DNA of 64,000 nucleotides from an uncultured Planctomycetales bacterium (GTDB taxonomy: Bacteria > Planctomycetota > Planctomycetia > Isosphaerales > Isosphaeraceae). Shown here in pieces: positions 25,989-39,708 of the stretch. The stretch spans positions 1-64,000 of the forward strand of contig CAIYJE010000112.1 in NCBI GenBank assembly GCA_903926465.1, written 5' to 3'. A program made the position numbers and the translations under genes. Every line of letters starts with the position of its first letter. The first letter of the stretch is position 1. Under the pieces are notes generated by a model. That model searched no databases and was not told where the DNA came from. It was given only the letters and a program-made list of their open reading frames with translations.

Positions 25989-28355
25989 TTAGAGATTCTC
26001 AAACGGCGTGTTGAGGATTGGGAATTGGGTCCAGTCTTTGAAATCAAAGTGCCACCATTCGACCTCGTTCACGGTAAACCCTTCGGCTTCCATGGCGTGG
26101 CGCAGCAGGTCTCTGTGCCAGCGCTGAAGTGAGGTGCCGCCTGGGTAGTTGGGTCGTGAGCGGGGCGAGAACTCGTCATAGCCGCCAGCCATCTCAACCG
26201 GCAGGCCGGTCTTGCGATCGTACAGGGTCAGGTCCACGGCGCAGCCGCGGTTGTGGCGAGAGCCTTTCTCTGGGTCGGCCACAAAGGCGTGGAACTCGGT
26301 GGGGGTTGCCAGTCTGAACAGCTTGGTGATGGCCCAGGGGCGGTAGGCGTCGTGGACCAGCAAGCCGTACCCGCTGGCTTCCAGCGAGGTTTGCACACGC
26401 TTCAGGGCCTGCGCGGCTGGTTCTTGAAGCAAGGCGCGGGCGGCAGGGTAAACGGCCACACCCAGGAAGTTGTTGGTGGTGGCGTAGCGGATCTCCAGCT
26501 TGATGCTGGGGTCCAACGTGGCCAGGTCTACGAGCTTGGGGGCCAGAAATTTGCCGGTTTCGGCTGGGGGAACGGCTTTGCCGGCTTCGGCGCGGGCCTC
26601 CTCAATATTCTGGGCCGGCGTGATCCGGAAGGTCCGCCCGTCTTCGCCATCAAGCGGGCGGCGTGGGAACACCACCTCGGCCGCCCGCACGCTTTGGGCC
26701 TTTCCAGAACCATCCAGCTCAAACACAACGGCCTGGTTGTCATACATGCCGAAGTCTGGGAACCGGAACACGCCGGGCGAAACTTCGATGAGCGGATACT
26801 GAAAGAACCACTCGATCTGGGCGTGAAGAATTCCGTTCTTCTCAAAAATGTACAGAATATTATGGTCCCAGCCGTATTCACCAATCAGCCCCTTCCAGCG
26901 CTCGGGGGCGGGTGCGGGAACAGGCGGTTCGATCCTTGTGAACGCGCGTGGCCCAATTTTCAGTGCTCCGTCCGTGAACTCCAGGGTGGGACCGAAGCCG
27001 GTGATCGGGTCATCAACGGCCAGGCGGTCACCGGCGGCTCGGACCTCAAGCAGAATGCCCTGACGGCCAGAGATCAGGAACAGGCGGGCGTTGCGTTCGA
27101 CCAGTTCCACGGTCTCTGGACCGTTGGCGTACAGGCCGGCCATCCGTTTTGCCTGCGAGGGGTTGACCGGGGTTGTGGTTTCGGCGTGTGGGGTGCTGTC
27201 CAGGGTGCCGGCTTTGGCAGCGCGCATCAGACGCAAGGCTTCCTCGGCAATCCGTCGGGCGGTGCCGTTGGCGCAGTCTTTGGTCACGATGACGGCGGCC
27301 CCAAGTTTTTCCTCGGGCAGCGCCTGGAGATCGGTGGCAAATCCGTACACGGCCCCCGAGTGGCCGACTCGCCTGGTGCCGCCGAACTCATCAACCATGA
27401 AGCCGAGCCCGAACCCGTTCTTGGCGTCTGGGGCCGCGAACTGGGGCTGCCACATTGCGTCCAGGGTTTCTGGCTTGAGCACACGTTGCTGAGATCTCTG
27501 ACCGGCCGCAAAGAGCATGGCGAGAAATTTGCCCAGGTCGATGGGTGTGGCATAAAGGTCGCCCGCTGGAATCATTCCAAGCGCAAACGAAGGAGCCTCA
27601 AACGGGGCGCCGTCGGCCGACCACATCACACCTTTGGCTGAGGCTGCAAGCATGGCCGCGGTGGGGATGAAGCCAGAATCGGTCATACCAATCGGTCCCA
27701 GAACCGTTTGTTTCAGGCATTCGGCGAACGGCTTGCGTTGGACGGTCTCTACCAAGCGACCAACCACGGCCAGGCCGGCGTTCGAGTACTTGGTTCGTGT
27801 GGTCGGTGCGTGGACCAGGGGGATGCCGTTGAGGCTCTTGACCGTTTCCGCGAGTGAGGGGCCGTTGAGGTCGAAGTAATGTCCGGCCGGTGGTTCGCGC
27901 ACCAGGCCGGATCGGTGGCTCATCAACTGCCGCAAGGTGATCGGCTTATCGTGGGGGTTCGCGGGCTGGAAGTCGGGGAGGTACTGGGAGACAGGGGCAT
28001 CCAGGTTCAGCAGCCCTTGCTCAACCAGTTGCATGGCGGCCATGTCTGTGAACAGCTTGGAGACCGAGCCGACCCGGCCGGTGGTAAGTGCGGTGGCGGG
28101 CGCTTGGGTTCTGGGGTCTGCCACGCCAAAGCCCTGGGCCCAGACGGTTTCCTGGTCATCGACCAGCACAATGAGCACGGCCGGCAGTTGTTGTTGCGTC
28201 CGCTGGTTTTCAATGAATGTTCCCAGGCGCTCGGCTACGGCCGTGTATTGGGTGGCGGGCCCAACCGCCGGCGGCGCCTGGGCGTTGAGCCTGGCCCAAG
28301 GAACCAGTGTCTGGATGGCAAGCAGCAAACCAATGCGGAACGCGTGCGGATTCAT
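25989..28355 (-). CDS. Beta-lactamase-fold serine hydrolase fused to VanX-type D,D-dipeptidase
   Basis: An exported two-domain protein of 788 residues with a signal peptide (ARLNAQA cleavage region). Residues about 35-370 are a class C beta-lactamase/penicillin-binding family domain with SVSK (Ser97, Lys100), YSN (190-192) and HSG (332-334). Residues about 400-580 are a linker domain like those that follow such hydrolases. Residues about 600-788 are a D-Ala-D-Ala dipeptidase of the VanX/peptidase M15D type. SRHNRGCAVD supplies His701 and Asp708, and EWWHF supplies catalytic Glu766 and Zn ligand His769. These spacings match the VanX metal site (H-x6-D, E-x2-H). Both modules act on D-Ala peptides, so a role in peptidoglycan fragment turnover is likely. 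No van regulatory genes are nearby, so vancomycin resistance is not implied. Confidence 0.88.
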   Translation of the reverse strand: MNPHAFRIGLLLAIQTLVPWARLNAQAPPAVGPATQYTAVAERLGTFIENQRTQQQLPAVLIVLVDDQETVWAQGFGVADPRTQAPATALTTGRVGSVSKLFTDMAAMQLVEQGLLNLDAPVSQYLPDFQPANPHDKPITLRQLMSHRSGLVREPPAGHYFDLNGPSLAETVKSLNGIPLVHAPTTRTKYSNAGLAVVGRLVETVQRKPFAECLKQTVLGPIGMTDSGFIPTAAMLAASAKGVMWSADGAPFEAPSFALGMIPAGDLYATPIDLGKFLAMLFAAGQRSQQRVLKPETLDAMWQPQFAAPDAKNGFGLGFMVDEFGGTRRVGHSGAVYGFATDLQALPEEKLGAAVIVTKDCANGTARRIAEEALRLMRAAKAGTLDSTPHAETTTPVNPSQAKRMAGLYANGPETVELVERNARLFLISGRQGILLEVRAAGDRLAVDDPITGFGPTLEFTDGALKIGPRAFTRIEPPVPAPAPERWKGLIGEYGWDHNILYIFEKNGILHAQIEWFFQYPLIEVSPGVFRFPDFGMYDNQAVVFELDGSGKAQSVRAAEVVFPRRPLDGEDGRTFRITPAQNIEEARAEAGKAVPPAETGKFLAPKLVDLATLDPSIKLEIRYATTNNFLGVAVYPAARALLQEPAAQALKRVQTSLEASGYGLLVHDAYRPWAITKLFRLATPTEFHAFVADPEKGSRHNRGCAVDLTLYDRKTGLPVEMAGGYDEFSPRSRPNYPGGTSLQRWHRDLLRHAMEAEGFTVNEVEWWHFDFKDWTQFPILNTPFENL

Positions 28356-34155: not shown

Positions 34156-35238
34156 TTATTGCCCAATCGTAGGTATCACTTTCGATGCGAGATGGGTGCG
34201 CAGACGATTGGCAAGTTGGGTGCTGAACTCGAAACGGCCTGCGTCGTTCATGTGGAAATAGTCGGAGAACATTTCGTCGGGTATGGCATCAACGAATTTC
34301 CAGATCGGCAGTACGGTCCCGTCAACCTCCGTCGCGAGAGTCTGTTCCAGGAAGTTGCGGGCAACCGTGGGGATTTTGTTGCGAATCTCGGATTGCTCGG
34401 GCATCAAGACGATGACGACTTCCGATCCGCGTTTTTGCAGTTCCTGGATGATGTTACGCAATGCATCGCCCTGAGACTGTTGGTGGAGAGCGTAGGAGTT
34501 GGCATCGAACCACCCGTAACCTTGAAGATTATCAAGTTGGTAACGGAGAAAATCGGGCCGCGCGTATACGGGGAAACCATGGCGTTCGGGGGCTTCCCAG
34601 GGACCACGATCAGCCGGGATGATGTCGAGCCTGATGCGGAGGGCGAAGAGAAAGGTCCGGATCGCATGGTTGATCGATGTTCGGTTCTTGCAAATCCACG
34701 CGTGCCAGAAAAGGCGGCTCCGGAATTCGTGCACATTCCGTAATCGTATGGCTTCAAGCAGTGATAATGAGCTGGGGGGAGCCTTCGACGGGTGACCGAC
34801 GAGCCAAGCGGCATGTATGCAAAGCAGAGTGAGTTGGGGGCGGATGTTGTAGCGGAATAGAGGATCGGCCAGTGAGCGAAAACGGTCCATGCTGCCACCA
34901 GCACCGCAGAGTCCGACAACGCGATTGCCATAGAAACTCTCAGGGTCGGCGAGAAGCCTTGGTTCAATGCCTTCGCCCGCTGTTGACATGCCAAGGTAAA
35001 GGAGGAAAGGAAGATCTTCGCCCGTGGAACTATAAGTTGCCTGAGCGAGACCTTTTACCTTCGCTTCCGCGATCTCGATCTGCTGCCAGTACATAGGTAT
35101 TTGAACGGGAACGAGCCAAGCAGGAGAGGGGCCTGTCGTCATCAGCAGCAATTGATTGACCGCGCACGCCAGCAGTACCACCGGGATCCCGACGGCGGTC
35201 AGACCACGATAGCGACGAAAATCAACGAATGAGGACAC
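34156..35238 (-). CDS. SGNH/DltD-like membrane-anchored acyl-transfer protein
   Basis: Last gene of the acylation operon, 360 residues. It has an N-terminal signal-anchor helix (about 13-34), then an SGNH-type domain. The nucleophile block is LGMSTAGEG with Ser85, a Gly-block GLCGAGGS follows, and the final block is DYFHMNDAGR with Asp326 and His329. It starts with GTG three bases after the stop of the microprotein gene. In Dlt systems the equivalent DltD sits on the outer face of the membrane and moves the acyl group from the DltX carrier to the polymer. In alginate/cellulose systems related proteins (AlgX, AlgJ, WssE-type) play comparable roles. The final acceptor here is unknown. Confidence 0.82.
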   Translation of the reverse strand: MSSFVDFRRYRGLTAVGIPVVLLACAVNQLLLMTTGPSPAWLVPVQIPMYWQQIEIAEAKVKGLAQATYSSTGEDLPFLLYLGMSTAGEGIEPRLLADPESFYGNRVVGLCGAGGSMDRFRSLADPLFRYNIRPQLTLLCIHAAWLVGHPSKAPPSSLSLLEAIRLRNVHEFRSRLFWHAWICKNRTSINHAIRTFLFALRIRLDIIPADRGPWEAPERHGFPVYARPDFLRYQLDNLQGYGWFDANSYALHQQSQGDALRNIIQELQKRGSEVVIVLMPEQSEIRNKIPTVARNFLEQTLATEVDGTVLPIWKFVDAIPDEMFSDYFHMNDAGRFEFSTQLANRLRTHLASKVIPTIGQ

Positions 35239-35241
35239 GTT

Positions 35242-35391
35242 CTAGAACCCCTGGTAGAAAAAGAGTTCGCCTTGGGTGCCACACCAGTAAGCCAAGATCA
35301 GTTCGACGACAACGATGGTGATGCGAACTGGCCATTGCCACAGAGGGATCAATGGAACAACGGCAACAGGAGCCGCAGAATGTTTTTCCAT
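35242..35391 (-). CDS. DltX-like MBOAT partner microprotein (49 residues)
   Basis: A small open frame that fits exactly between the MBOAT and SGNH genes: its ATG is two bases after the MBOAT stop and its TAG three bases before the SGNH GTG. It encodes a polar N-terminus (MEKHSAAPVAVV), one membrane helix (about residues 20-37, VRITIVVVELILAYWC) and a C-terminus ending GELFFYQGF. DltX of the teichoic acid D-alanylation system is also about 50 residues, single-pass, and ends in an FIYNEF-type F-x-Y-x-x-F motif whose Tyr serves as acyl carrier. Here FFYQGF fits the same pattern at the same extreme C-terminal position. Size, topology, motif and gene position all agree; the carrier role of Tyr46 is inference. 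Confidence 0.8.
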   Translation of the reverse strand: MEKHSAAPVAVVPLIPLWQWPVRITIVVVELILAYWCGTQGELFFYQGF

Positions 35392-35393
35392 GG

Positions 35394-36572
35394 TCATGGG
35401 AATAACGCTTTGAATGGAATGGAAATGAAAGCAAGCGAGAATGCCACGAATTCAAATGTCAGAATTGTGGCAACACTGCGGATCCAGGGATTGGCAAGGT
35501 ACTTTTTCATTCCCTTGGAGCCAAGCCGCTTGGTGATAAGATCTCGGTAGATGTTGGTGACAACGAGTCCCAATGCATGGCCCAAGCCCCACAGAAGGTA
35601 GAGGTAGGTTGCTTGATGCCATAAGCCGCAAAGGGCAAATGCGGTGGTGAAAGCGATGCTGGCACACAAGATTGGGTGTGTTCCCCCCGTGCGACGGACC
35701 ATCCCGAGCTGGATGGGGAGAAAAATATTGCGCCTGATGAACTGAGAGAGAGTGATGTGCCAGCGTTCCCAGAAGTCGATGAGATTCCGTGCGAAGTAGG
35801 GACGGTTGAAGTTCTCTGGGGTGGCGATGCCAAGCAGAGTGCCGATGCCAACCGCGATGTCGCTGAGTGCGCTGAAATCAAGGTATAGCCAGATGTAGAA
35901 GATCTGGGCCTCCCAGACCATATACCACCCCGGGATGGTAAATCCCGTGAGGAAGAGCCGCTGAAGCAGCATTGCCAGTACGTACTTCTTGAACGCCCCG
36001 AAGGCAATGCGTTCGACGGCCAGCAGGGATTGGTTGGGGCTGAGTGGTGGGGAAGGTCCTGATAGCCGGATAAAATCACTGAAGGGCTGGATGGGTCCAG
36101 CGGCGAGCATGTGGAATGGAAGCAGGTAGCTGACGATCTCGGGTAATGACGGAGGAGTGGCGCGTTTTTCATAGACGGTGCGCATCAGGTCGATCATACG
36201 AAGGGCGACGTAGGAAAAACCGATCGTCGCCAGGACGTTCGTCACTTTATCAGCAGGTTCGAAGACCGCGAGCGTGGGGATTTTGTGGAGCACGAAGAGG
36301 GCCGCGGTCGGGAGGGCGAGCGCAATGCACGCCACAGTGCGGAAGCTGTTACGAACGAGAAGCTTTGATAAGAAGAACACCGCGACGGCGGCCGCGACGA
36401 CCCCGATCCATTCGAACTTGTTGACGTACATCTTCAAGAAAAGAAGATTCACAGCCGCTGCGACCCAGCAGCGGTACCGGCCTCCGGCTACGGGAACATA
36501 CACGAGCAGGGCAAAGAGCAGGAATACCCAGTATTTTTCTGCGGCGAGATCAATCATGTGATCATCCACCAT
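35394..36572 (-). CDS. MBOAT family membrane O-acyltransferase (DltB/AlgI-like)
   Basis: A polytopic inner-membrane protein of about 392 residues that moves an acyl group from a cytoplasmic donor to an outward-facing acceptor. Hallmarks, numbered from the chosen start, are FWERWHITLSQFIRRNIFLP (about 267-286) and the catalytic His319 in CGLWHQATYLYLLWGLGH, with a second His at 332. The start at 36572 is chosen because AGGA lies five bases upstream; 36587 and 36557 are alternatives. Under any choice except 36557 it overlaps the end of the FkbH gene. The partner genes (ACP, FkbH, microprotein, SGNH) make it the DltB counterpart of the operon. Confidence 0.92.
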   Translation of the reverse strand: MVDDHMIDLAAEKYWVFLLFALLVYVPVAGGRYRCWVAAAVNLLFLKMYVNKFEWIGVVAAAVAVFFLSKLLVRNSFRTVACIALALPTAALFVLHKIPTLAVFEPADKVTNVLATIGFSYVALRMIDLMRTVYEKRATPPSLPEIVSYLLPFHMLAAGPIQPFSDFIRLSGPSPPLSPNQSLLAVERIAFGAFKKYVLAMLLQRLFLTGFTIPGWYMVWEAQIFYIWLYLDFSALSDIAVGIGTLLGIATPENFNRPYFARNLIDFWERWHITLSQFIRRNIFLPIQLGMVRRTGGTHPILCASIAFTTAFALCGLWHQATYLYLLWGLGHALGLVVTNIYRDLITKRLGSKGMKKYLANPWIRSVATILTFEFVAFSLAFISIPFKALFP

Positions 36573-38445
36573 TCGGATCCTCACCATGAATCAAGGTTGG
36601 TGCCGCTCGAACAAACGCCAATGGTTGCCGGTAGAGGACGGTGGCTTCGGAACCCTGGGTCAGCCGCTCAAAGCCGAGGCTTTCGTAGAGTCCGGCAATG
36701 AGTTCGTTCTTTGGGGTGGGGATAAATTCCCCCTGGAGAGCTTCCCAGCCGGATTTGCTGGCACGATCGGCGAGAGCATTGAAGAAAAAGTGTTCGGCGG
36801 TGCGGGCGATGACTCGACAGCTCATGAGCCAGGTGTCGATCCGGAGTGTCTGGTGACCACAGGCGGCATCAGGAATCGCTATCAGAACGCTCACCAGGCC
36901 GTGATCGCCAAATCGATCGCGCAGACTGAGAGTGAGGCCGATTGTGCCCGGAAGACTCAACATCTCGCGGACTTCCTCAAGACTGTGGCGGCGGGTGGTG
37001 ACGTTGAACTGGTTTGTTTTGCTGAGGAGTTGGACAACGCGGTGGATGTTTGTCTCGTCGATGGGTTTGATGACACCCGTCATTGCGAGCGATTTCAGGT
37101 ACTCTTCCATGGAAGTGAATTGAATTTCTGAATCTCGCCGCTTGCACTCCTGCTGGTACTGCGAGGTGCGCTGGAGATCGGACTCAAGCAAGGCAACCGT
37201 TTCAAACCAGAGTTCTGACTGGAGGGCACGGGTGTAGTCGGCAGGGTCAACCGGGACGTCGACGACGGCCACTTCCGGCAAAGATTGCCTGACAAGTTCG
37301 CGTTCAGCGGGGTTGTCATCGAAAAAAACGAAGCTCTCCAGGCCGAGCCCGAGAGTTTGGGCGATCCGGCGGAGGGAGAGAACCTTGGAATCCCAGTGGG
37401 CTTCGATATGGGCGAAATGCTTGAGCCGAAGGAGCATTTCGGAATTCTGTTCGAAGGGGGACAACGCGTCGTCGCGATTGTTCTTGGAGGCGATGGCAAG
37501 AACCACACCACGTTCTGAAAGCTCTTTGACGTGTTTCTGGAACGCGCGAAAGGCTTCTCCGTCGGGTGTCTCTCCGAGAGCAATTCCATGGGGGCCGGTC
37601 TCGCCGACGATGCCTCCCCAAAGCGTGTTGTCGAGATCAAGGACCAGCACTTTCTTTGGTCCGTACATCAGGGCCCGAACACCGGACCAGAGGTGGCGGG
37701 CAAGTTCAGCAACGCCCAGTTCGCTAAACGGTTGCTTGGTCCAGAAGTAGCGGCGCGGATCGTAGAAGGAGTTGCGGCCGATTCCTCCAGAGACTTGTTC
37801 AAGGTCGACGAAGAAGGCTCCTGGTGGCAGGTTGTTCCGCAACGCGTCGTTCATCCGGCGAACGACCGCAACCTGCCCATCGCCGGTGGCGCTCAGGTGA
37901 TGTCCCAGTGGACCCGGTGATATCCAGTCATATCCCACTTGCAAGATTTTTGCCGCGTGATTCCTGGCGATCAAGTTCCAGGCTTGTTTCCAGAAGCCCA
38001 GTTCCTCATCAATCCGCTGCTGTGCAGAGCGATGATGAGGATCAAAGAACAATCGCTCGGTCCAGGGGACGAGGATGACGATCTTTGGAGCGGAATCTGG
38101 GCCGGGTGAAACCATCAGCTCCTGCATCACATTGTCGTACTCGCCATTTCGGACGCGGAGAAAAATCCCCTGTCCCCAGGCGATGGCGGGCAGGGCGGTG
38201 GCAATCCACGAAGTCGTGCATTGACCAAGAAGCAACACGTCGATCCGCTGGACGTTGACCGGGGGCGCAGCGGCAGTCCACTTGGCAAGGAGCTTGCCGG
38301 CCTTATCGAGTTCGTCTGGCGAAAGTGGGTGGTTGCGGATGATTTCGCCGAGTTGCCAAAGCGCTTCCGTGAAATGTTTCTGCTTTGCGCGGTCCGAGGC
38401 ATCTTTGAATAGTTGTGCGGGAGAATTGTTGTCAGAGGGCTTCAT
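36562..38445 (-). CDS. FkbH-like HAD-IIIC protein, probable glyceryl-ACP synthase
   Basis: FkbH-type enzymes take 1,3-bisphosphoglycerate, remove the phosphate and load a glyceryl group onto an acyl carrier protein. This one has 627 residues. Residues about 65-225 form the SGNH-like N-terminal part seen in many FkbH proteins. The HAD domain starts at VLVLDLDNTLWGG (catalytic Asp270 and Asp272) and has FFDDNPAER (Asp376-377). The C-terminal GNAT-like region carries LLSKTNQFNVTTRRH. A preceding 60-residue helical segment may be TPR-like. Its neighbours are an ACP and a methyltransferase upstream and an MBOAT downstream, so the likely product is a glyceryl (or modified glyceryl) thioester used for membrane acylation. 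The actual substrate is inferred. Confidence 0.88.
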   Translation of the reverse strand: MKPSDNNSPAQLFKDASDRAKQKHFTEALWQLGEIIRNHPLSPDELDKAGKLLAKWTAAAPPVNVQRIDVLLLGQCTTSWIATALPAIAWGQGIFLRVRNGEYDNVMQELMVSPGPDSAPKIVILVPWTERLFFDPHHRSAQQRIDEELGFWKQAWNLIARNHAAKILQVGYDWISPGPLGHHLSATGDGQVAVVRRMNDALRNNLPPGAFFVDLEQVSGGIGRNSFYDPRRYFWTKQPFSELGVAELARHLWSGVRALMYGPKKVLVLDLDNTLWGGIVGETGPHGIALGETPDGEAFRAFQKHVKELSERGVVLAIASKNNRDDALSPFEQNSEMLLRLKHFAHIEAHWDSKVLSLRRIAQTLGLGLESFVFFDDNPAERELVRQSLPEVAVVDVPVDPADYTRALQSELWFETVALLESDLQRTSQYQQECKRRDSEIQFTSMEEYLKSLAMTGVIKPIDETNIHRVVQLLSKTNQFNVTTRRHSLEEVREMLSLPGTIGLTLSLRDRFGDHGLVSVLIAIPDAACGHQTLRIDTWLMSCRVIARTAEHFFFNALADRASKSGWEALQGEFIPTPKNELIAGLYESLGFERLTQGSEATVLYRQPLAFVRAAPTLIHGEDPNGG

Positions 38446-38551
38446 GTCGGAACCGCAGGTTTGGATTCAGCGTACCGAGCCGTATGGCGGCGGCATCCAA
38501 ACGGCCAGGCCAGAGGGGTGACGTTAGTATATGCCGCAGCCGCGTGAAGAG

Positions 38552-39472
38552 TTAGTAGAACTCACCGCACCGCTTCTGGACAATAAGGGCCATCGAGCGG
38601 GGAAGGAACCGTGCCTGGGGTAGGGTTCGCGTAGGACCTACGGAAAGAGTTTGCAGCACGCGGAGGCCCTGCTCTTCGCACATTTTGACAAGCTCGGATT
38701 CGTAACGGAACTCGTAGATGTGATCAACCTGAGCGGCCGTAAGCGCGCCGGTGATGAAGCCGATGGCCCGGGGTTTGAGCAGATGGCTGACGACCGCGAA
38801 CAGCTTTTCCGGTCTTTCGAGGTGCTCGACGAGAAAATTGCAGATCAGACCGTCGGCAATGCTTTGCGGCATATGCGTGAGGTCCAGGGCGTCTCGCTCG
38901 GTGTAAGTTGCACGATCGGCCACGCCGGCGGCGCGTGTGACGCTACTGGCAATTTGAATGGCGGACGGGCTGATGTCGAAACCCTGGAGTTGTGCTTGCG
39001 GAAGCCGGGAAAGGGCCCAGGCGCCCCACCCTCCATGTCCGGGGGCGATTTCGACAATTTGCGACGTTGCGGGTAGCTTGGCGAGGAACGTGTCCGCGTA
39101 CAGGAGACTGATCTCGGTGTGATGCGCCCAGAGGAAATTGGTGAGATAAATACCCCACAGGTATTCATTCATCGTATCAATCTGGCTGTAGTGGTTTGCG
39201 TACACCTCCGCAAACGATTTGTTCTGGTAGCTGCCGTCTACCTCATACCGGGCCTGCGCGAGATTGACATCGGTGGAGAATTGGACGAACGCGTCGGCGG
39301 CGCGTTGGATTCCGTCGTCACCAAGTGCCTTCACGAGCCAGCCCAGAAACATCTCTGCGATTTCCGTGAATTTCTGCGGCGAGACCCGCATCGCTTCCTC
39401 GACACCACGTCTTGATCGGGGGTGCTTATCCGCGATGTATTCCAAGAGCTTCGGCAGGAGTTGGCGGTTCAT
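38552..39472 (-). CDS. SAM-dependent methyltransferase
   Basis: A class I methyltransferase of 306 residues. The SAM-binding motif I is IVEIAPGHGGWG (139-150), followed by acidic loop GFDISPSAIQIAS and motif III-like DGLICNFLVEHLE. The first 130 residues form a helical region of unknown function. Its ATG overlaps the TGA of the ACP gene (ATGA at 39469-39472), implying coupled translation. In methoxymalonyl-ACP pathways an FkbG-type O-methyltransferase works with FkbH on an ACP-bound glycerate. By analogy this enzyme may methylate the ACP-bound glyceryl group, but it could equally act on the sugar acceptor. Confidence 0.85.
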   Translation of the reverse strand: MNRQLLPKLLEYIADKHPRSRRGVEEAMRVSPQKFTEIAEMFLGWLVKALGDDGIQRAADAFVQFSTDVNLAQARYEVDGSYQNKSFAEVYANHYSQIDTMNEYLWGIYLTNFLWAHHTEISLLYADTFLAKLPATSQIVEIAPGHGGWGAWALSRLPQAQLQGFDISPSAIQIASSVTRAAGVADRATYTERDALDLTHMPQSIADGLICNFLVEHLERPEKLFAVVSHLLKPRAIGFITGALTAAQVDHIYEFRYESELVKMCEEQGLRVLQTLSVGPTRTLPQARFLPRSMALIVQKRCGEFY

Positions 39473-39708
39473 CGTCCCGCTTTCTGTTCAATCAGGTCGA
39501 TCAGTTCGCCAACATTCTGCAGGCCGGCAACTTGGGCGCTCGTGAAGCGAACTCCAAACTCTTTTTCCGCCTTGACGATCAGCGTTACATGGGTCAGCGA
39601 ATCCCAGTTTTCAATATTCTTGGCACTCGTATCGCGTGAGATCACCAATTCATCGTCGTTAAAAACATCATGAAAAACCGCTGTTAAACGCATGAGAGTG
39701 TCAGACAT
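39469..39708 (-). CDS. Acyl carrier protein (DltC-like role)
   Basis: A phosphopantetheine-binding carrier of 79 residues and the first gene of the acylation operon. The attachment motif is NWDSLTHV with Ser37. The fold length and acidic character are normal for ACP. It is dedicated to this operon rather than fatty-acid synthesis: no fab genes are nearby, and it overlaps the methyltransferase gene by four bases. Its expected cargo is a glyceryl-type group loaded by the FkbH-like enzyme. Confidence 0.92.
   Translation of the reverse strand: MSDTLMRLTAVFHDVFNDDELVISRDTSAKNIENWDSLTHVTLIVKAEKEFGVRFTSAQVAGLQNVGELIDLIEQKAGR

Follow-up and report, generated by a model that had tools for sequence, protein, structure and literature searches.

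A planctomycete operon resembling Dlt in which an FkbH-like protein probably takes the place of the DltA ligase

The closest described relatives of the system reported here are the DltX-DltABCD pathway, by which Gram-positive bacteria D-alanylate the teichoic acids of their envelope, the PatA-PatB and AlgI-AlgJ systems for O-acetylation and the FkbH modules of polyketide and nonribosomal peptide pathways. Both DltX and the MBOAT PatA contain the acyl-shuttle motif FXYXXF, whose tyrosine carries the acyl group, and according to a 2025 account neither a carrier protein nor a microprotein like DltX occurs in MBOAT/SGNH pathways outside Dlt (PMC12148441). FkbH proteins form glyceryl-acyl carrier protein (glyceryl-ACP) (PMC7489565), are found in place of adenylation (A) domains in nonribosomal peptide synthetases (NRPSs) (PMC8949500) and, in the synthetases for suomilide and varlaxin, are partnered by methyltransferase domains to give methylated glycerate (PMC10143770). 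Here we analyse a 64,000-nucleotide stretch of DNA (the window) from an uncultured Planctomycetales bacterium, in which a leftward run of six genes at 34156-39708 (-) encodes an ACP, a methyltransferase, an FkbH-like protein, a short MBOAT, a microprotein and an SGNH protein, and probably constitutes a Dlt-like transmembrane acylation pathway with FkbH as its cargo loader. The features of this operon, in the order of the genes, are as follows.

39469..39708 (-), acyl carrier protein, 79 residues (basis PF00550)
38552..39472 (-), S-adenosylmethionine (SAM)-dependent methyltransferase, 306 residues (basis PF13649)
36562..38445 (-), FkbH-like putative loader, 627 residues, with FkbH_N, HAD core and C-terminal domain (TIGR01686, PF21211, PDB 3slr)
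35394..36587 (-), MBOAT acyltransferase, 397 residues (PF03062, PDB DltB 8jem)
35242..35397 (-), DltX-like membrane microprotein, 51 or 49 residues, single hydrophobic helix
35245..35262 (-), acyl-shuttle tail FFYQGF (FXYXXF) at the microprotein C terminus
34156..35238 (-), DltD-like SGNH transferase, 360 residues, with an N-terminal membrane helix (basis Foldseek)

Like DltX-DltABCD, the operon combines a carrier protein, a short MBOAT, a separate single-helix FXYXXF microprotein and a DltD-fold SGNH transferase; the original prediction that DltX and DltD both have counterparts here is supported by the motif of the microprotein and the predicted fold of the SGNH protein. Unlike DltX-DltABCD, it contains no DltA and has instead an FkbH candidate loader and a methyltransferase, and its scores on the DltB and DltC models fall far below the cut-offs: the MBOAT reaches 171.5 bits against a DltB cut-off of 375 and the ACP 13.1 bits against a DltC cut-off of 68, so that neither is an equivalog. 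To our knowledge, teichoic acid is not expected in planctomycetes. DltA had also been described as missing, and indeed no match above the TIGR01734 cut-off was found in the operon or in the whole genome, which holds 12 sub-threshold adenylation-type stretches elsewhere, mostly inside long NRPS-like frames. A member of the same bacterial family (G013) serves as positive control, with a true DltA-DltB-DltC set (locus L114, 45-3149) in which DltB and DltC pass the cut-offs and DltA passes one DltA model and falls 0.5 bit short on the other; a motif scan found no DltX-type tail near these genes. Because the same models recognise the dltABC genes of this relative, the test separates Dlt from the FkbH set.

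A true Dlt pathway is excluded by the lack of a DltA over the cut-off and by the sub-threshold DltB and DltC scores, set against the same-family control. A degenerate or divergent one, in which D-alanine would be loaded by an adenylation enzyme encoded elsewhere and FkbH would be a bystander phosphatase, is very improbable. The DltX-type motif, the DltD fold, the DltB-size MBOAT and the 12 adenylation-type stretches would all fit such a pathway, but none of these stretches reaches the DltA cut-off, with most of them lying in the NRPS-like frames, the MBOAT and ACP miss cut-offs that the relative's dltABC meets (for DltA on one model only), and FkbH-MBOAT adjacency recurs over many genera. The operon works like Dlt but is not Dlt. 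The MBOAT itself is of DltB size, without two extra C-terminal helices, and its DltB-like traits are this size and the separate microprotein; its TIGR04091 (DltB) score was dropped as proof of kinship because AlgI-type MBOATs reach equal scores.

The operon also has the features of MBOAT-SGNH pathways, namely an MBOAT His, a shuttle Tyr and an SGNH Ser/Asp/His set, and shares its His, Tyr and Ser relay with PatA-PatB and AlgI-AlgJ, which differ in having an acetyl-CoA donor, no carrier protein and no microprotein (PMC12148441). The MBOAT, the only one in the genome and adjacent to its only FkbH, has invariant H277 and H324, with the codon of the catalytic His324 at 35616-35618 (-). Neither the microprotein nor the SGNH protein had a match in a Pfam scan, and each was therefore examined separately. 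The microprotein ends in LFFYQGF. For the SGNH protein, a structure predicted by AlphaFold2 with ten homologues was compared with the PDB using Foldseek; the five chains with E <=0.001 were all DltD, followed by further DltD chains and PatB. TM-scores were only about 0.4, indicating that the model is imprecise, although the assignment of the predicted structure to the DltD fold appears sound. Ser85 (34984-34986), Asp326 (34261-34263) and His329 (34252-34254) are invariant in the ten homologues. Motifs, fold and linkage together give good support to the predicted MBOAT-microprotein-SGNH relay; known relatives exist for every part, and no change in the relay chemistry is expected.

Shuttle tails recur with the MBOAT. 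A small open reading frame (ORF) with FFYQGF lies at the MBOAT 3' end in loci L028, L032 (twice), L110, L111, L113, L116 (twice) and L127, and FFYQAF is the tail in L090, L093, L109, L112 and L115; other microprotein tails are FLYQGF (L095), FVYTGF (L089), FVYRAF (L094), FIYAGF (L103) and TAYRAF (L036), the last keeping the Tyr and the final Phe and losing the first Phe. The MBOAT itself carries the tail on the alphaproteobacterial plasmids and at one planctomycete locus (L087); the sequences of these fused tails are FLYQGF (Sinorhizobium meliloti), FIYFNF, FIYAGF and FVYQEF, and in this respect the alphaproteobacterial FkbH-linked MBOATs resemble PatA. As a microprotein or as a fused tail, the shuttle Tyr is present at every complete FkbH-linked MBOAT locus. 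An F.Y..F ending was found in 27 of 14,362 stop-to-stop frames of at least 30 residues in the larger loci, mostly the MBOAT-linked tails themselves. Comparison of the microprotein gene in two congeneric genomes gave 5, 5 and 13 differences at codon positions 1, 2 and 3, respectively, the third-position excess expected of a translated gene. Far from being an isolated operon, the set belongs to a broad class whose members are of a microprotein type or a fused type.

On the loading side, the FkbH protein scores 292 bits on TIGR01686 (curated cut-off 146.65) and also matches FkbH_N. The DLDNT HAD motif earlier read as intact was confirmed by alignment, in which DLDNTLWGG (37612..37638, -) is invariant in nine homologues except for position-flanking residues; DLDNT and DDNPAER are both invariant. 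The C-terminal domain has an invariant Cys543 in TWLMSCRV (codon 36817..36819, -), judged from its conservation a possible acyl-transfer residue. In the ACP the predicted 4'-phosphopantetheine site is Ser37 (codon 39598-39600, -), W35-D36-S37 is invariant across 14 FkbH-linked ACPs, and an ACP lies within 400 bp of FkbH in 23 of 33 stand-alone FkbH cases. As in the FkbH modules for tetronates, methoxymalonyl-ACP and nonribosomal peptides, the operon has FkbH with a discrete ACP or peptidyl carrier protein, in the position of an adenylation domain and with a methyltransferase alongside; the occurrence of FkbH in the A-domain position of NRPSs and its pairing with methyltransferase domains are precedents for the replacement of DltA by FkbH and for the operon methyltransferase. 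By analogy, the operon FkbH most likely loads glyceryl on the ACP. Unlike the modules of polyketide and NRPS pathways, the operon lacks synthases and dehydrogenases and its unit would go to a membrane acylation relay. The dehydrogenase pair of the methoxymalonyl-ACP set (FkbG-K) was found neither in the operon nor in the flanking genes scanned, and methoxymalonyl supply for a polyketide was rejected on the lack of a synthase and of dehydrogenases in the operon. Other planctomycetes have FkbH fusions that include an ACP domain and either a thioesterase or a transferase. Loci L081, L082, L088, L097 and L102 carry FkbH-ACP-thioesterase fusions, hexapeptide transferase-FkbH-ACP or N-acetyltransferase-like-FkbH-ACP, arrangements that are alternative users of the FkbH-loaded unit.

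The methyltransferase was modelled with confidence (predicted local distance difference test score (pLDDT) 91) as a class I methyltransferase fold. Its homologues adjoin FkbH-ACP in other loci, including some without a nearby MBOAT (L029, L043), which argues that its substrate is most likely the carrier-bound unit; its presence, for which the original prediction gave no explanation, suggests O-methylglycerate as the operon cargo. A VOC/Glyoxalase_4 protein resembling methylmalonyl-CoA epimerase recurs beside FkbH-ACP, with or without MBOAT (L036, L037, L040, L043, L075, L090, L093, L095), and may act on the ACP-bound unit; speculatively, related systems tailor this unit differently, perhaps by epimerisation.

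We propose that FkbH takes a glyceryl group from 1,3-bisphosphoglycerate, removes the phosphate and forms a thioester on ACP Ser37, as would follow from its family, so that activation would come from a glycolytic acyl phosphate with no ATP-using adenylation enzyme. The methyltransferase, a less certain step, might then O-methylate the ACP-bound glyceryl to O-methylglyceryl-S-ACP. Judging from the conserved parts, the acyl group would next be received by the FFYQGF tyrosine, acylated by the MBOAT at the outer face; from this tail it would move to Ser85 of the DltD-like protein, which is anchored in the membrane and would esterify an extracytoplasmic acceptor, probably an envelope glycan. A glyceryl-type cargo, as the original prediction proposed, is likely by analogy with described FkbH proteins. 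An unlikely alternative is that the relay is the same and FkbH loads another small hydroxyacyl group, for example lactyl or one from another phosphorylated hydroxy acid; tailoring of that group would then fall to the methyltransferase and, in relatives, also to the VOC protein. The FkbH tree is deep, and the recurrent epimerase/glyoxalase-type partners suggest tailoring at the carbon beside the thioester; against this, the FkbH proteins of PMC7489565, PMC10143770 and PMC8949500 are assigned glycerate, and the HAD motif and C-terminal MSCRV are intact here.

Co-conservation links the loader to the relay. A Schlesneria metagenome-assembled genome (MAG) has the exact order ACP-methyltransferase-FkbH-MBOAT-microprotein-SGNH at 35-75% protein identity, G168 has ACP-VOC-methyltransferase-FkbH-MBOAT-microprotein-SGNH, and two congeneric genomes have ACP-VOC-FkbH-MBOAT-microprotein-SGNH. 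Recurrence of the ordered set in a second genome at this identity, with variants in many others, indicates more than chance. In a phylum survey of an even sample of 392 planctomycete genomes, FkbH exceeded the cut-off in 30, at least 9 of which (counting the source genome) have an MBOAT within 5 kb, and the FkbH-MBOAT adjacency spans many genera. When the same 392 genomes were searched with a profile of the MBOAT subfamily, the best seven all had an FkbH neighbour (7/7, P about 8e-9); three of the seven had supplied sequences for the profile and another is a congener, which leaves three that give P about 4e-4. The subfamily was present in seven of 45 genomes of the source organism's family, and each of these seven belongs to the group of eight that have a close FkbH (P about 2e-7); several of them are congeneric and hence not independent. 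The expectation that the genes are conserved together was therefore borne out, both by the identical order in the Schlesneria MAG and by the way in which the MBOAT subfamily tracks FkbH in the planctomycete surveys.

Linkage of FkbH, ACP and MBOAT is also found on three alphaproteobacterial plasmids. In S. meliloti ml59 pSymB (L037, 4882-10770; also L038, strain 1021) the order is VOC-MBOAT (FLYQGF)-SGNH-like-ACP-FkbH; the SGNH-like protein carries the annotation 'TonB-dependent receptor', and in the 1021 reference (L038) FkbH is broken into two ORFs that overlap. The Sinorhizobium ACP SMb20651 was considered as prior work on an FkbH-MBOAT module and set aside, since it pairs with an acyl-CoA ligase. 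Loader and relay can also be separated: G019, with three MBOAT-microprotein-SGNH cassettes, and G023, with two (L109-L112, L115), each have a single FkbH-ACP pair at a separate site, raising the question of whether one loader serves several acceptors, and in G436 the MBOAT and microprotein are located apart from FkbH. Within the FkbH clade of the source organism (14 members, support 97/99), the MBOAT is present in 11 genomes and absent from three, namely an acidobacterial MAG and two planctomycete genomes that are incomplete.

These distributions bear on the possibility that the two halves have separate jobs, with FkbH, ACP and methyltransferase making a small methylated-glycerate metabolite and the MBOAT relay using acetyl-CoA like PatA. 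FkbH-ACP does occur without MBOAT at loci L029, L039, L042 and L043, and most other MBOAT-SGNH pathways run on acyl-CoA (PMC12148441). Such a division of labour nevertheless seems quite improbable, given that the MBOAT subfamily tracks FkbH almost perfectly even where unlinked in the genome, that the genome's sole MBOAT lies inside the FkbH operon and that a separate microprotein has been published only for the carrier-dependent Dlt (PMC12148441).

Several observations weigh against a single pathway in which FkbH loads glyceryl for the relay. The acidobacterial MAG, G179 and G024 have FkbH-ACP without an MBOAT of the subfamily, so glyceryl-ACP has other uses, and FkbH could load another hydroxy acid. 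The SGNH model has a pLDDT of 72, a moderate confidence, and the structure search with the methyltransferase pointed to no substrate. FkbH proteins with an adjacent MBOAT are dispersed over the FkbH tree, which requires about 10 changes and does not improve on shuffled labels; a single origin of the linkage is unsupported by this tree, and we therefore claim a modular association.

The original prediction knew of no described system with this exact set, and we likewise found none in the open-licence full-text literature, nor any description there of FkbH feeding an MBOAT relay; the exchange of DltA for FkbH thus seems undescribed. FkbH-MBOAT loci repeatedly contradict both parts of the rule that, among MBOAT/SGNH pathways, carrier protein and DltX-like microprotein are confined to Dlt (PMC12148441). 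We consider the chances evenly balanced that they represent a second, widespread type of envelope acylation that depends on a carrier protein, in which FkbH diverts 1,3-bisphosphoglycerate into (O-methyl)glyceryl-ACP, a loader can feed several cassettes and both architectures occur. If so, no ATP-using ligase would be needed to put a glycolytic intermediate on the surface of the cell, and the class would have a Dlt-like architecture (separate microprotein) and a PatA-like one (fused tail). The logic would be that of a plug-in, with the export relay kept and the loader exchanged, as where FkbH replaces adenylation domains in peptide synthetases. The predicted ester on planctomycete and rhizobial surfaces would be glycerate or methylglycerate, and the set might be one route by which bacterial glycans acquire substituents of the glycerate type, a modification for which no transferase system was described in the literature searched.

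Finally, recomputed ORF coordinates agreed with the earlier description of six adjacent leftward genes, every ORF lying on the minus strand as described, and of their tight junctions (ATGA, an FkbH/MBOAT overlap, and 2- and 3-base gaps). ACP and methyltransferase overlap by 4 nucleotides (ATGA), 106 nucleotides separate the methyltransferase from FkbH, and FkbH and MBOAT overlap by 26 nucleotides counting from the first ATG of the MBOAT; a start at a later ATG is possible because sequence conservation begins near residue 13. The microprotein overlaps the MBOAT by 4 nucleotides from its first ATG (51 residues) or follows it after 2 nucleotides from its second (49 residues), and a 3-nucleotide gap leads to the SGNH gene, which starts with GTG. 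Promoter and terminator scans gave signals not better than shuffles. Directly upstream of the operon lies an AT3-type membrane acyltransferase gene (PF01757; 40483-41823, -), which is absent among the ORFs examined beside the ACP end of the Schlesneria copy, and then a pentameric ligand-gated ion channel homologue (PF02931, PF02932; 41841-43409, -). At 25989-28355 (-) a domain of the beta-lactamase family and one of the D-Ala-D-Ala dipeptidase (M15) type share a single frame.
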